IMG/VR virus record: IMGVR_UViG_3300037502_000288
Coordinates: 1 to 23,455 of that record
From: a virus
Length of the DNA stretch: 23,455 bases
Direction: 5' to 3' (one strand)
Part shown: positions 523 to 15,998 of the stretch, piece by piece
Layout of the letters: each line of letters starts with the position of its first letter
Position numbering within the stretch: position 1 is the stretch's first letter
Translations under genes and position numbers: made by a program
Notes under the pieces: model-generated
What the model was told of the DNA's origin: nothing
Database searches by the model: none
Seen by the model: the letters and a program-made list of their open reading frames with translations, nothing else

Positions 523-530
523 GATAAATA
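523..530 (+). promoter_or_regulatory. T4-type late promoter box for gp14
   Basis: GATAAATA, one mismatch from the T4 late consensus TATAAATA. It ends 4 nt before the ATG at 535 with no Shine-Dalgarno between, so the predicted transcript is nearly or fully leaderless. It lies 12 bp from the -35 of the divergent early promoter. Confidence 0.65.
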
Positions 531-5737: not shown

Positions 5738-5827
5738 TTGTTTTTCCTTAATGTTAGTGCGGGTTCTAGCCGCTACGCAGTGGGTACTGCATAAACTCTC
5801 CCTATGAGAGTGTATAAGTTATTTATC
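5738..5827 (-). promoter_or_regulatory. Late promoter and triple-hairpin leader of the 5737 gene
   Basis: On the minus strand GATAAATA (5820-5827) is followed by about 80 nt of leader. It can fold into three small hairpins: ACTCTC/GAGAGT (5795-5811), GCAGT/ACTGC with loop ACCC (5777-5790), and GCGG/CCGC (5759-5773). AAGGA lies just ahead of the ATG. The structure probably protects the 5' end or sets translation rate. Confidence 0.65.
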
Positions 5828-5853
5828 AAAAATGATAGGTTTTCATACTCCCC

Positions 5854-5861
5854 AATAAATA
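5854..5861 (+). promoter_or_regulatory. Late promoter box, leaderless arrangement
   Basis: AATAAATA ends exactly 5 nt before the ATG at 5867; the intervening TCGCT has no ribosome-binding site. It decides the start at 5867 over the in-frame ATG at 5804. Confidence 0.55.
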
Positions 5862-5866
5862 TCGCT

Positions 5867-7060
5867 ATGGCAATCATAAACAAAGACAACTACTATTATA
5901 TAGAATCATATAACGACCGCAATTCGACTGCTCCTGAACCCAAAATTAGATATACAGGATGGCCAGGCCAAGCAGTAAGGAACTGGGATGATAAGGACTA
6001 TTGGTATGTAGAGTTTATCAACGGCGACGCATTCTATCACAATACCATAGAAAAACTCGCAGGAACTGATATCTTAAATAAGATACGCAATGGTCAAGTA
6101 ACATTATGTGTGTCTAATTCCCATGAAGCGTATCACTATGTCATAGGAGATATCTATCACGATTTGGTAATCAACCAACGTATCCCGGCAAGTAATATAT
6201 TATACTTGACCAACTCAATGGATATTGACAAAGAAATAGAGATTGTCAGTACAAAACTAAACTATCCAAAAATAAAGTCTGAGTACATTAGCTTATTTGA
6301 AAAAGTAGCACAGGATCAGATCGAGAAGAACAAGAACGCATATGCGGCAATTTCAGTAAACAAGTCAGACTATGATAAGAAATTCATATCGTTGAACGGA
6401 CTATGGCGACCGCATAGGTTGTTGTTAGTTTCATTGCTTGAATCTCTGAATGTCAGAGAACAAGGATATGTCAGCTTGAATGCTAGCTCAACCGATTTAC
6501 CATCAATGACAGACATGTTTGGTGAAATGATTAATTGGACTAATGATTCCACTATCAAACAACTATTATTAGACAACAGAGAAAGATTGATGTCCCTCAA
6601 TCAACTTTATCTAGACACTGACCCCAATAATAATTGGACTGGTGCTGTGTATAATAGTCTTGATAAAAATTATTATGAGAATACGTACTTTTCAGTAGTT
6701 ACGGAAACACTATGCGCCCCTAACTTTTCACAAGCAGGCAACACATTGGGTAGAGCAATCAGTGAAAAGACATTCAAACCAATATTGAATCGTCATCCTT
6801 TCATGATTCTGGGAGTAACTGGTGTACTGAGATTATTAAGACAGTTGGGATACAGGACATTTAGTCCCTACATTGACGAATCATATGACGATGAACCTGA
6901 TTTTGTCAAACGATCTTTTATGATAGCGAAAGAAACAGAAAGATTATGTAGTTTACGAGGAAAAGACCTGCAAGATTTTCTAATCAATTGCAGGTCTATT
7001 GTCGAACACAACTTCAAAGTCTTATCTGATAAATCAGTGTTTACTTATCCAATGACTTGA
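5867..7060 (+). CDS. Glycosyltransferase-like protein, paralogue 1
   Basis: 397 residues, cytoplasmic, no signal or membrane segment. The C-terminal half carries YFSVVTET (274-281), ISEKTFKP (298-305), HPFMILG (310-316) and TFSPYIDESYD (331-341). The order 'E-T ... S-E-K-x-x-K-P-I ... P-F' resembles the donor-binding half of GT-B enzymes of the exostosin/fucosyltransferase type, so a glycosyltransferase is my best inference, not a firm call. The gene at 7453-8520 has the same motif series (YMIVVSET, LSEKTWKP, RPFLING) and an equivalent KHLYLAYNRKPR / KKFISLNGLWRP block, so the two are paralogues. The start at 5867 is chosen from the late box. The 3' end overlaps the opposing gene by 16 bp, and a terminator lies 25 bp beyond the stop. 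Confidence 0.6.
   Translation: MAIINKDNYYYIESYNDRNSTAPEPKIRYTGWPGQAVRNWDDKDYWYVEFINGDAFYHNTIEKLAGTDILNKIRNGQVTLCVSNSHEAYHYVIGDIYHDLVINQRIPASNILYLTNSMDIDKEIEIVSTKLNYPKIKSEYISLFEKVAQDQIEKNKNAYAAISVNKSDYDKKFISLNGLWRPHRLLLVSLLESLNVREQGYVSLNASSTDLPSMTDMFGEMINWTNDSTIKQLLLDNRERLMSLNQLYLDTDPNNNWTGAVYNSLDKNYYENTYFSVVTETLCAPNFSQAGNTLGRAISEKTFKPILNRHPFMILGVTGVLRLLRQLGYRTFSPYIDESYDDEPDFVKRSFMIAKETERLCSLRGKDLQDFLINCRSIVEHNFKVLSDKSVFTYPMT
6964..6997 (+). repeat. Perfect 10-bp inverted repeat inside the gene
   Basis: AGACCTGCAA (6964-6973) and TTGCAGGTCT (6988-6997) are exact reverse complements around a 14-nt centre, in which GATT and AATC can also pair. It lies about 65 bp before the stop of the 5867-7060 gene and is not followed by a T-tract, so it is not a standard terminator. 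Confidence 0.7.
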
Positions 7061-7416
7061 TCGTGATATCTTTTCTTTTCACGTATAGGATCGTTTAGTT
7101 TTTCTGCGATCCTATTTTTTATAGCATATCGGTCTTTGTTGATATCACGAATCAATATGGCTCTACGACCTATTTCTTCTAGTGGATACTTCAACTCAAC
7201 TACACACTTTTTAAAATCATCTTCCATTTCCCATATTCTACGATGAATGTCGGTCAATTCTGTTAAATCATCTTCTACACTAGAGATGTCAAACTCATTG
7301 CTGAGTTGTTCTCTGTAGAAATCAAATTCTTCTTGGTTGTTTCCAAGTATACTAAGTTTGACTTGTGCGATGCAATATCTGTCAACCAATTCAATAAGTG
7401 CTAGTTTAAATGCCAT
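7045..7416 (-). CDS. DUF6165-like helical protein
   Basis: 123 residues, all-helical and highly charged. The layout matches the DUF6165 family as I remember it: an ELVDRYCIAQVKLSIL opening, an IHRRIWEMEDD segment in the middle (family: VN..LW.IED), then an IRDINKDRYAIKNRI segment (family: ND.RA.iKr.IN) and an EKKRY end. Members are often found beside glycosyltransferases or sulfotransferases, which fits its position between two glycosyltransferase-like genes; the biochemical role is not known. The ATG has GGAG 7 nt upstream and a perfect late box (TATAAATA) 17 nt upstream. Its 3' end overlaps the convergent gene and contains that gene's terminator. Confidence 0.6.
   Translation of the reverse strand: MAFKLALIELVDRYCIAQVKLSILGNNQEEFDFYREQLSNEFDISSVEDDLTELTDIHRRIWEMEDDFKKCVVELKYPLEEIGRRAILIRDINKDRYAIKNRIAEKLNDPIREKKRYHDQVIG
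7085..7120 (+). terminator. Intrinsic terminator embedded in the opposing gene
   Basis: ATAGGATCG (7085-7093) pairs perfectly with CGATCCTAT (7107-7115) around a 13-nt loop, followed by TTTTT (7116-7120). It lies 24 bp after the stop of the plus gene ending at 7060, but within the coding sequence of the minus gene 7045-7416. Confidence 0.7.
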
Positions 7417-7433
7417 TTTTTAACTCCGTACCT

Positions 7434-7447
7434 TATTTATATAAATA
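7434..7447. promoter_or_regulatory. Palindromic bidirectional late promoter
   Basis: The 14-bp palindrome TATTTATATAAATA contains a perfect TATAAATA late box on each strand (plus 7440-7447, minus 7434-7441), overlapping by two bases. The plus box ends 5 nt before the ATG at 7453 with no Shine-Dalgarno; the minus box lies 17 nt before the ATG at 7416 with GGAG between. Confidence 0.8.
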
Positions 7448-7452
7448 TCAGC

Positions 7453-8520
7453 ATGGCTAAAGTTTACGAATTCAACAATCTGCCTCATCAGATTTTTCAC
7501 AAAAACACAAACGACATCATATACTATTCTAGCGAGCCACCTGAATTAGGTATATTTGAGCGTGAGTGGTTAGACTCATTAAAAAGAGAAATAGAACAGA
7601 CCTCTACTTATGAGCATAATGTCTTAGTTAATCTTACTTGGTTTAATTGCAATTGGGAAGCAACAAAACCACTAGTCAATTTAATTGAAAATTTAGGTAC
7701 ACCTGAAACAGTGAAACTGTGGTATGCTTGTAGTATTGATGGTGGTTATTTCATTACATACCCAAATATGAAATTCTATCATCTTATTAAAGAGAAAGGA
7801 TACAACCATTCATTTGTTGGTTTTTCTGATGAGCATTGGCATTCATGGATACCTCAGTGGTTTATTGACAATAATCTACGTGTCAATACCAATGATATTA
7901 TGCTTAATACTAACCCAAAGCACTTGTACTTGGCGTATAACAGAAAACCACGAATACATCGTGAATGGTTAGTCAATTCATTAATAGAAAACAACCTATT
8001 AGATAGGGGTTGGGTAACGTTCGAACGCGGGCATTATCCTGAAATAGATAGTAGAACTGAGTCAACAGATCAAGACAAACACACAAGTGATTTAAGATAC
8101 ACTAGACCTGAAGATATTTGCAGTATAGGTGATCTAGATAAATGGAGAGATAGTTATATGATCGTAGTTAGTGAGACAGACCACGATGATCCATGGCAAC
8201 TATCAGAAAAAACATGGAAGCCTATATTTGGATTGAGACCGTTCTTAATTAATGGCAGAAGAGAAGTCTATAATATACTAGAGAAGCTAGACTTATATAC
8301 TCCAAAAGACTTGTTTAAGAATGTTGACTTAGACTGTCACTATGAAAGTGTCGTAAAACAAATTCAGGCGCTTTATAACAAGACGCCTGAAGAATTGTAT
8401 GACCTTTGGGAGAGTCAATTTGAAATGCTATTGTACAATCGTAAACGAATGTTTGAGATAGCTAATAGTGACCCTACTAAAATACTGAACTGGCCTCAAG
8501 CAGTTCCTGTATTAGCGTGA
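7453..8520 (+). CDS. Glycosyltransferase-like protein, paralogue 2
   Basis: 355 residues, soluble. Shares with the 5867-7060 product the ordered blocks YMIVVSET (235-242), LSEKTWKP (250-257) and RPFLING (262-268), plus a KHLYLAYNRKPRIHREWL block (157-174) equivalent to KKFISLNGLWRPHRLLLV. The N-terminal halves differ, as expected if each recognises a different acceptor. GT-B-type glycosyltransferase activity is inferred from the motif arrangement and from the sugar-nucleotide genes at the right end of the window; no catalytic residue is proven. The start is fixed by a perfect late box 5 nt upstream. The 3' end overlaps the convergent 8496-8783 gene by 25 bp with no terminator seen between. 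Confidence 0.6.
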   Translation: MAKVYEFNNLPHQIFHKNTNDIIYYSSEPPELGIFEREWLDSLKREIEQTSTYEHNVLVNLTWFNCNWEATKPLVNLIENLGTPETVKLWYACSIDGGYFITYPNMKFYHLIKEKGYNHSFVGFSDEHWHSWIPQWFIDNNLRVNTNDIMLNTNPKHLYLAYNRKPRIHREWLVNSLIENNLLDRGWVTFERGHYPEIDSRTESTDQDKHTSDLRYTRPEDICSIGDLDKWRDSYMIVVSETDHDDPWQLSEKTWKPIFGLRPFLINGRREVYNILEKLDLYTPKDLFKNVDLDCHYESVVKQIQALYNKTPEELYDLWESQFEMLLYNRKRMFEIANSDPTKILNWPQAVPVLA

Positions 8521-8795: not shown

Positions 8796-11696
8796 TTATA
8801 ATCTTCCTACGGCGATTTCAATAACGCCTTCTACACCGTCAAAGTTTTCTAATGCTTTGCCGATCACCGAACCCATGATAGGTGATGTTGTTGGTCTTGC
8901 ATATCCATTACCTGCACTAACCATCATATCACCTTTACGAATGTTGCCTCGTACCTTGACTGGGACACGACCTTGTAGAGCTATAGCAACTGCAATACCT
9001 TGACACTTGGCGTGCATTGCAAATGCAGGATCGGTTGATACTACGCCTGCAACTCTTGCTGTGCCATCTTCTGCTATAGTGACTTCTTTTTCGCCACCAA
9101 ACTCCAATACTGTACCAGGCTCATAGTGAACATCTGCTTCATAGTATTCTGCCAAGTCAGCGTATGTTGCGTTAAAGCGTGAACCAGCAGTTAATGTCCA
9201 GTTACCAGTGACTAAACCCGCTGTTGTGTTTGCACCTGTAGTCAACACATTTGCAGTGACACCTCCCCCGCCGCTTTCACCAACTACAATGCTACCATCA
9301 CGGGCTACGACAAACTTACTTGTTCCACCAACTTGTAAGTCCATTAAATAGCTACCAGACGCACTAGCAGTATTTGTGATGTTCTGTCTAAATCCAGTAA
9401 ACGCAACACTAGAATTATTCCATGTTTGTGTTAGTAACACAGGGGTAGTTGCAGTGATCGATCCACTTGCAACAGCTAATCCTGTCAATGTACCAACGCT
9501 AGTAATATTACCTTGTGCGGCATTTGTAACTGTATTAGCTGTTGAGGAATGTGTAGCATTTGCTACTGTACCACTGACGTTAGCACCCGGTATACTTGTC
9601 AATCCTGTTGCCGCACCGTAGAAAGCGGCTGCGTAAACATTACCACCGACACCTACACCACCTGCAACTTCTAATGCACCTGTTGTTGTAGAACTAGATG
9701 CAGTAGTAAATCGTACATTCATTTGAGTATCATCAATGATAACTCTGTCAGATAATGTTTGTACCGTGTTACCTGTACTACCGGCTGTTGCAGTTTGAAT
9801 CACTATCTTACCGGGCGTAGCATTTCCTGTACTAGCACCTGCCTTAATAGAAATATCACCACCAATGTGATTCAATCCTGCCGCTTCGCCGCCCGCAATA
9901 GTCATATCGCCGCCAGCACCATCATATGTTCCGCCAGTGATTACAACATTACCGCCCTTAGCACCGTATGTATTAGCACTAGCGCCGGATGCTATAGCTA
10001 CCGTGCCACCTTGACCTTGACCATAACCTGCGCCGCCGGATAGTATTGCAAGGCCGCCGGCTGCGTTACCAGTGGCTGATGCGTTACCACCGTATGCATA
10101 TATGCCGCCACCTGCACCGGTACCGTTACCAGTTCCGCTGGTTATATTAATGTTGCCACCACTATCATTCAATGTAGTAGTTGCACCTCCGGTGATGTTT
10201 AGATCGTCACCTGTTGAACCATATGTTGAAATATCGTTAGCAGTAATCGTACCTGATACTGTTAATGATGTTAATGTACCAACACTAGTAATGTTTGGTT
10301 GCGCCGCTGTAGTCACTGTACCGGCTGTTGTTGCTGTTGCCGCTGCCAAATTAGCAACGGTTGTAGTAGAAGTAACAGTAAACGGTGCGGTACCTGTTGC
10401 AATGTTTGATATTAATCTACTTGCAGTAACTATGCCTGCGGTGCTCACATTGCCACCGGTTATATTACCTGTTGCAGTTACAACGCCACCTGTTGTGATA
10501 TTGCCACCAGACACATTGCCTGTTGCAGCCACTGCACCAGCGGTAGTGATATTACCACCTGCTACATTACCTACTGCTGTAACGGTAGAAGTAGCATAAA
10601 ATAATGTAGATTTTAAGTTACCAGTTGCGGCATTGAATGCTAAATTGGCATTAGCCCCCTCAACTACATTACCTGAAGTAGCGTTAGCTAATACTGGATA
10701 AAATGTACCGGTTGTGACTACATTGGTATTAATGAAGTCAGCCACATTCGCATAAGCCACATTTAAATTAGCAACTCTGGTTGTACTAGTAACTGTTAAT
10801 GGCGCGGTGCCGTCTGCAACGTTACTTGTTAATGTACTTGCCACAACGCTAGTAGTTGCATTTAAATTGCCTGCATTGACATTACCACTAACCGTCAATA
10901 AATTAGTAGTGTTATTCCATGTAAAATCACTATCACCGTCCAAAACACCGCTGTTGTTAAATTGTATCGTACTATTTGAGCCACCTGCAACACCAGTACC
11001 GCCACCAGTGCCTGAAATAACACTAGTTGCAACAGCAACGTTAGCCGTACTTGCACCTAAGTTTGTACCTACTGCGGCAGTAGTTCTACCCGAGTCAGTG
11101 TACAGTTTGACGTTACCTGATGTAGCATAGTCGGTAGCAAGCGTAATATAGAATGTTTGTCCGTTGACAATTGAGTTAGCGTTTGCGCCGTTTGCACCTG
11201 TAATTGTGACAGCCGTACCGTTAGTGTACGGTACAGTGTTTGCAACCGTCATAATGATAGGAGTTGCATTACTGAGTGCAATGATAGGAGTGTATAATGT
11301 ACCTTTAGGTGTCCAAGCTAAGTTACCTAGTCCATCTGTTTCTAATACATAGCCAATAGCACCACCGCTGATGCTTACATTGGCTACACTTCCTAGGTCT
11401 ATTAGCCCACCTGCAGTACCACCTCGGTTAACCCAATTAGTGCCGTCATATGCAAGTACTTGACCGTCATCTACTGATATAGCAGATATGTCTAAGTTAC
11501 CAACTGCACCTTCAATTTGGCTGAAAGCAATATTGGAATAGGATGTGAGAACCTCAATGTTCTCATTAGGGGAAACTTTACCAATAAAAAGTCGTTTAGC
11601 ATCGCTAGCAAAGCCAAACTCAGCTTCATCAAGCTGTGGCAGATCAACGATGTTACCTGATCTTTGTTGGATTTTTGATATCTGTACTATGGCCAT
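8796..11696 (-). CDS. Tail fibre protein with repetitive beta shaft
   Basis: 966 residues. The N-terminal ~45 residues (IQQRSGNIVDLPQLDEAEFG, then LFIG) are of the type that attaches phage fibres to the baseplate. Residues about 56-500 are Thr/Ala/Gly/Asn-rich shaft with repeats, including three 17-residue units at 376-426 and two similar GTAP(L/F)TVTSTT blocks (297 and 435). Residues about 500-630 are a Gly-rich series with GG every 10-14 residues, suggesting a beta-roll or triple helix. TTGALEVAGGVGVGGNV (671-687) is a typical fibre motif. The last ~120 residues (YADLAEYYEADVHYEPGTVL onward, with GRVPVKV and GNIRKGD) form a compact domain found at the end of many phage fibres, possibly a chaperone or self-cleaving domain related to the Peptidase_G2 type. 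It probably recognises the host surface. Confidence 0.85.
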   Translation of the reverse strand: MAIVQISKIQQRSGNIVDLPQLDEAEFGFASDAKRLFIGKVSPNENIEVLTSYSNIAFSQIEGAVGNLDISAISVDDGQVLAYDGTNWVNRGGTAGGLIDLGSVANVSISGGAIGYVLETDGLGNLAWTPKGTLYTPIIALSNATPIIMTVANTVPYTNGTAVTITGANGANANSIVNGQTFYITLATDYATSGNVKLYTDSGRTTAAVGTNLGASTANVAVATSVISGTGGGTGVAGGSNSTIQFNNSGVLDGDSDFTWNNTTNLLTVSGNVNAGNLNATTSVVASTLTSNVADGTAPLTVTSTTRVANLNVAYANVADFINTNVVTTGTFYPVLANATSGNVVEGANANLAFNAATGNLKSTLFYATSTVTAVGNVAGGNITTAGAVAATGNVSGGNITTGGVVTATGNITGGNVSTAGIVTASRLISNIATGTAPFTVTSTTTVANLAAATATTAGTVTTAAQPNITSVGTLTSLTVSGTITANDISTYGSTGDDLNITGGATTTLNDSGGNINITSGTGNGTGAGGGIYAYGGNASATGNAAGGLAILSGGAGYGQGQGGTVAIASGASANTYGAKGGNVVITGGTYDGAGGDMTIAGGEAAGLNHIGGDISIKAGASTGNATPGKIVIQTATAGSTGNTVQTLSDRVIIDDTQMNVRFTTASSSTTTGALEVAGGVGVGGNVYAAAFYGAATGLTSIPGANVSGTVANATHSSTANTVTNAAQGNITSVGTLTGLAVASGSITATTPVLLTQTWNNSSVAFTGFRQNITNTASASGSYLMDLQVGGTSKFVVARDGSIVVGESGGGGVTANVLTTGANTTAGLVTGNWTLTAGSRFNATYADLAEYYEADVHYEPGTVLEFGGEKEVTIAEDGTARVAGVVSTDPAFAMHAKCQGIAVAIALQGRVPVKVRGNIRKGDMMVSAGNGYARPTTSPIMGSVIGKALENFDGVEGVIEIAVGRL
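10419..10571 (-). repeat. Three tandem 51-bp units in the fibre shaft
   Basis: Residues 376-426 of the fibre consist of three diverged 17-residue copies with the core G-N-V/I-x-G-G-N-I/V-x-T-x-G-x-V. The period is 51 bp at DNA level. The copies vary at several third and first codon positions, so this is an established array rather than a recent slip. Confidence 0.7.
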
Positions 11697-11732
11697 AAGT
11701 GTAATCTTTACCGGTTATTACACTTATTTATC
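11697..11732 (-). promoter_or_regulatory. Late promoter and inverted repeat ahead of the fibre gene
   Basis: GATAAATA (11725-11732 on minus) is followed immediately by a perfect 9-bp inverted repeat, AAGTGTAAT/ATTACACTT (11717-11725 and 11697-11705, loop 11 nt), which ends directly against the ATG at 11696. The loop contains GGTAAAG, the only candidate ribosome-binding stretch. If transcription starts about 6 nt after the box, part of the first arm is not transcribed, so a DNA-level operator is also possible. Confidence 0.6.
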
Positions 11733-15945: not shown

Positions 15946-15998
15946 GATAAATTTCCTTTAAGTAGTTTGAGACCTACTGTCTCATACACTTATTTATG
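15946..15998 (-). promoter_or_regulatory. Late promoter and hairpin leader of the 15945 gene
   Basis: CATAAATA (15991-15998 on minus) is followed by a leader of about 45 nt with the hairpin TGAGAC-AGTAG-GTCTCA (15968-15984) and AAAGGA ahead of the ATG. Confidence 0.65.

Follow-up and report, generated by a model that had tools for sequence, protein, structure and literature searches.

A Palindrome of Two Opposed Late-Type Boxes as a Probable Bidirectional Promoter in a T4-Related Environmental Phage

Introduction

Overlapping divergent late promoters were reportedly described in the base-plate cluster of bacteriophage T4 by Scarlato and colleagues, writing in Virology in 1989. In T4, overlapping or interleaved divergent late boxes are found at three junctions (26/51, 4/53 and inh/segE), the first of which contains the 12-bp palindrome TATTTATAAATA (L157, 46451-46462). 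The T4 late box occupies positions -13 to -6 (PMC1524935), and the direction of activated late transcription follows the nicked strand, which orients the sliding clamp (PMC2988020). For bacterial bidirectional promoters, steric exclusion between polymerases is accepted; however, five such promoters of Escherichia coli had a basal activity too weak for the two directions to compete, and competition emerged only once one direction had been strongly activated (PMC12825309).

The DNA analysed here, called the window, is an entire virus record of 23.5 kb. Between two of its divergent genes lies a perfect palindrome in which a late-type box can be read on each strand. We propose, with a probability of roughly 0.8, that this site is a bidirectional T4-type late promoter formed by two outward-facing boxes (NATAAATA) that have two base pairs in common.

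The Virus Record and the Divergent Gene Pair

The proteins encoded in the window are those of a giant T4-related myovirus and include a tail sheath stabiliser like gp15 of T4 (Pfam, 1.1e-19). By these proteins the closest named relatives are Atu_ph07, Phosso and PA5oct. Large phages of this group have late transcription of the T4 type, the late sigma factor family having matches in PA5oct (E = 6e-83) and Atu_ph07 (E = 6e-118). Homologues of gp55 and gp45 were not found in the records of this clade itself, all of which are fragments, so that these negatives are uninformative either way. No relative of the gene pair was found among named phages at either the DNA or the protein level.

The coordinates of the pair and of the other features discussed are collected in Table 1. 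The 355-aa product of the plus gene resembles that of the neighbouring gene at 5867-7060 (BLAST E = 3e-5 for the pair). It has no family match in Pfam or PHROG and no match among PDB sequences, and its structural model is so poor (pLDDT 52) that a fold search is uninformative; its former label, glycosyltransferase-like, finds no backing in any of these comparisons. The 123-aa product of the minus gene had been called DUF6165-like. Its own score against DUF6165 (PF19662) is 20.4 bits (E = 4.7e-4) and does not reach the gathering cut-off of 27 bits, but all seven homologues of the protein (7/7) match the family, the best at 3.9e-5, and the label appears weak but consistent. The predicted structure of this protein consists of helices and has no significant PDB match.

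Table 1. Coordinates, strands and characteristics of the features considered in the window
Feature	Position	Strand	Remarks
355-aa gene, leaderless type	7453..8520	+	SEKT(W/F)KPI motif common to neighbour gene 5867-7060
123-aa helical, DUF6165-like protein	7045..7416	-	Profile match below Pfam cut-off
Perfect 14-bp palindrome TATTTATATAAATA	7434..7447	both	Two overlapping late-promoter boxes; identical in G002
Late-type box TATAAATA	7440..7447	+	-13 to -6 if start at 7453
Late-type box TATAAATA	7434..7441	-	-13 to -6 if start at 7428
Predicted transcription start, A of ATG	7453	+	From T4 rule (PMC1524935) and conserved 5-nt spacing
Predicted transcription start, ~12-nt leader	7428	-	From T4 rule (PMC1524935)
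GGAG Shine-Dalgarno of minus gene	7424..7427	-	At extreme 5' end of predicted RNA; from sequence
Leaderless-type box AATAAATA	5854..5861	+	Gene start probably 5867 (398 aa), not 5804
Divergent partner box GATAAATA	5820..5827	-	82 nt before minus gene with ATG 5737
Leaderless-type box GATAAATA	523..530	+	4 nt, then ATG 535; 568-aa virion structural gene

The Palindromic Site

The sequence TATTTATATAAATA is its own reverse complement and is found at a single place in the window. Its length alone does not make it unusual: the window has five perfect palindromes of 14 bp or more, shuffling leads to an expectation of 1.8, and 80% of the shuffles contained one. This particular 14-mer was present in none of 200 dinucleotide shuffles (0/200), and the only exact TATAAATA sites in the whole window are the two within it. 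The ATGs at 7453 (+) and 7416 (-) begin open reading frames of 355 and 123 aa, and the palindrome, its box in each direction and both start codons are all present as the preliminary description had given them.

As at T4-type late promoters, a NATAAATA box lies on the coding strand upstream of each gene, an arrangement for which no -35 element is needed. As at bidirectional promoters, one symmetrical -10 element is common to the divergent predicted starts at 7453 and 7428. A sigma70 promoter at the site was rejected, since no two-hexamer promoter of that type was scored at 7417-7453.

The recurrence of the palindrome was examined in a sample from IMG/VR, in which 120 exact copies of TATTTATATAAATA among the matches listed were compared with 120 copies of a control palindrome, TATATTTAAATATA, with the same base composition; a copy was scored as divergent when it separated divergent genes and had an ATG at most 60 nt away in each direction. 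Divergent placement was found for 16 of the 120 listed palindromes and for 1 of 120 controls (Fisher p = 1.7e-4), in an unclustered sample in which several copies share one gene pair. This repeated pair comprises the head-closure gene gp4 and a baseplate tail-tube-cap gene, and gp4 starts 5-6 nt past the box.

Late Boxes and Gene Starts

The relation between the box and start codons was surveyed in the window together with ten relatives from IMG/VR, using the ATGs of called open reading frames and, as control, 20 permuted 7-mers of the same letters, pooled. ATAAATA lies within 45 nt of an ATG at 91 of 137 sites (66%, versus 10% for the permuted controls) and 3-8 nt from it at 37 of 137 (27% versus 1.4%). 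In this clade the box is a mark of gene starts, although such an enrichment is a sign of association with them and not of initiation as such, and the placement of TATTTATATAAATA is clearly not due to chance. The 39 box-driven gene families fall into 24 with the box 10 nt or more from the ATG and 15 with it mostly 3-8 nt away. When the box is at least 12 nt away a Shine-Dalgarno-like motif follows in 51 of 56 single genes, whereas the near class almost never has one; the leaderless-type families of the clade, with the ATG 3-8 nt past the box and no Shine-Dalgarno, are these 15 of 39. When some 207 kb of T4, Atu_ph07, P-SSM5, S-RIM2 and PA5oct were scanned in the same way, 1 such case in 35 was seen. 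Since the box occupies -13 to -6 in T4, the RNA of near-class genes would start on or beside the ATG.

A/T-rich sequence ahead of an ATG can aid translation without a Shine-Dalgarno. ATAAATA at 4-7 nt before the start codon might then be a translation-initiation signal or a plain A/T-rich leader, and the plus gene would be translated from read-through RNA, as would suit a near class devoid of Shine-Dalgarno motifs. However, the identical motif stands further upstream in 24 other gene families, mostly with a Shine-Dalgarno, permuted A/T-rich 7-mers give no such peak, and the motif is the known late promoter of T4 and cyanophages (PMC2984593). We regard this explanation as very unlikely and read the motif as a late box.

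The gene at 7453 has a conserved start codon a few nucleotides past the box, a conserved N-terminus and no Shine-Dalgarno in the sequence ahead of its ATG. A leaderless start is supported for this gene, its RNA start being predicted from the position of the box. Three plus-strand genes of the window are of the leaderless type (523-535, 5854-5867 and 7440-7453), and for the first of them the near spacing of 4-5 nt is kept in nine records. About two fifths of the box-driven families look leaderless, which affects start-codon annotation: the genes annotated as starting at 457 and 5804 probably start at 535 and 5867 instead.

The boxes at 5820 (-) and 5854 (+) form a second divergent late-promoter pair in the window (5738-5861), and the 82-nt leader of its minus gene includes inverted repeats. 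At 15946-15997 (-) in the window, and in G001, G003 and G005, a late box is followed by a mini-ORF, ATG-(AGA/AAT/AGG)-CAG-TAG, some 45 nt ahead of the true start of the gene; the mini-ORF is enclosed in a small hairpin, TGANNC-AGTAG-GNNTCA, in which two positions show paired changes. In G001, G002 and G007 a leaderless-type mini-ORF, M-x-x-R-W-stop, overlaps AGGTGGTAAACCT 54-55 nt before a gene of about 1200 aa and may be a leader peptide or a 5' hairpin. At 11696-11731 (-) in the window, and in G001, G003 and G005, a late box precedes an inverted repeat, AAGTGTAAT ... ATTACACTT-ATG, which ends at the ATG of a tail-fibre-like gene without a Shine-Dalgarno and shows paired changes in relatives.

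Conservation in Relatives

The plus-strand box is kept in nine relatives (G002, G003, G004, G006, G007, G008, G009, L290 and L306). The minus-strand box is kept in the same records as (T/C)ATAAATA or, in G008 and L290, as CTAAATA, which is reported to be the consensus of late promoters in phage Aeh1 (PMC1524935). The start-to-start spacing of the two boxes is 6 in the window and G002, 24 in G003, G004 and G009, and 22 in G006 and G007; determined by eye from the sequences, it is 10 in G008, 21 in L290 and 24 in L306. From box to plus ATG there are 5 nt in the window, G002, G003, G004 and G009 and 7 nt in G006, G007 and G008, while the plus-gene leaders of L290 and L306 are longer. The Shine-Dalgarno of the minus gene has AGGAG or AAGGA as its equivalent in relatives. 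The two opposed late-type promoters proposed earlier for this site are thus upheld by the recurrence of both boxes in most relatives, and the contrast between a leaderless plus gene and a minus gene with a Shine-Dalgarno by that of the 5-7 nt spacing and of the minus Shine-Dalgarno.

The palindrome itself is kept in the closest relative, G002, but not in the others, in which two separate boxes lie 10-24 bp apart, start to start. All 36 intergenic bases (36/36) are identical between the window and G002, although only 74% of third codon positions match in the minus gene and 57% in the plus gene, which points to selection on these 36 bases. Since symmetry is confined to the closest relative, it is not the conserved feature; as judged from this comparison, the conserved unit is the putative divergent promoter pair. 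Separated boxes in both sister and outer records make the overlap most simply a derived shortening, and the palindrome resembles a condensed, derived version of the conserved pair. The tree of the plus protein places the window beside G001, where the gene has another upstream neighbour, and a single origin of the palindrome is not settled by this tree.

Two further explanations can be weighed against this pattern. Perfect dyad symmetry, as present at 7434-7447, is typical of dimer binding sites, and the palindrome could be mainly the target of a dimeric phage or host regulator, its likeness to a promoter being secondary. Relatives lose the symmetry and keep both boxes, which leads us to reject this possibility as extremely improbable; moreover, the box is unpaired at most other gene starts and the 14-mer is present only once in the window. 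It could also be that one direction only is a working late promoter and that the second box arises as a side effect of an AT-rich -10 element being nearly symmetrical. TATAAATA is indeed nearly self-symmetric, and the symmetry of bacterial -10 elements yields much divergent transcription (PMC12825309), but separate, non-overlapping boxes persist, each upstream of its own gene, in G003, G004, G006, G007, G009, L290 and L306, and a single working direction seems unlikely to us. A promoter active in both directions remains the preferred reading.

Direction of Transcription

In the proposed bidirectional promoter, the NATAAATA boxes would be the -13 to -6 element for a gp55-type late sigma factor, facing outward and overlapping by 2 bp, and RNA polymerase with this factor would bind the site in either orientation. 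In the plus orientation RNA would begin on the A of the ATG at 7453, and the message for the 355-aa protein would have no leader. In the minus orientation it would begin near 7428, and a leader of about 12 nt with GGAG at its 5' end would precede the coding sequence of the 123-aa protein. We infer the use of a gp55-type holoenzyme, the exact starts and leaderless translation; the observations themselves are the sequence, the conservation of both boxes and the association of the box with gene starts across the clade, in two classes of leader.

By analogy with bacterial promoters, it is plausible that two polymerases do not occupy the site at once. The separated boxes of relatives, 10-24 bp apart, are probably mutually exclusive as well, so that overlap is not needed for exclusion. 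That the DNA would set the ratio of the two outputs, as first suggested, is not borne out by what is known of comparable systems, since basal transcription is too low at the E. coli promoters (PMC12825309) and direction in T4 follows the nicked strand (PMC2988020). Late promoters activated by the clamp might reach the strength that competition requires. Because the two boxes are identical on one site, direction might depend not on the DNA sequence but on which way round the replication sliding clamp arrives; the palindrome would then read out fork direction and switch between the genes as forks pass, a possibility that we consider improbable.

Comparison with Known Systems

Phage phiYS40 is a Thermus phage with a different promoter system. 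Its middle and late messages start at the ATG (PMC3594737), as proposed here, although in the present clade some late genes look leaderless and others do not. The leaderless late class of this clade also poses the problem of how such messages are translated in these phages.

The bidirectional promoters of bacteria and archaea (Warman et al.; PMC12825309) likewise have one symmetrical -10 element, divergent transcription and an expected steric exclusion. They differ in their use of housekeeping sigma or archaeal factors, where a phage late sigma is proposed here, and in their common start spacings of 10, 18 and 23 bp, where 25 is predicted here. The symmetrical bidirectional promoter is a known principle that very probably applies to T4-type late promoters as well and is met again at unrelated gene pairs of environmental phages. 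With its perfect symmetry, such a late promoter would be a clean template for studying how clamp orientation sets direction.

The T4 late promoters (gp55/gp33/gp45) share with those described here the same 8-bp box, its placement before genes and late or structural targets, and a late sigma is present in the nearest named relatives. However, the boxes of this clade often begin with G (44/95), and its large leaderless class is absent from the sampled 50 kb of T4. At the T4 26/51 junction, opposed late boxes likewise overlap as a palindrome between divergent late genes, but the overlap there is 4 bp in a 12-bp palindrome and here 2 bp in one of 14 bp, and both T4 genes have Shine-Dalgarno leaders whereas one gene is of the leaderless type here. 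The arrangement of opposed late boxes is already visible in T4, and the leaderless late class is the less expected part.
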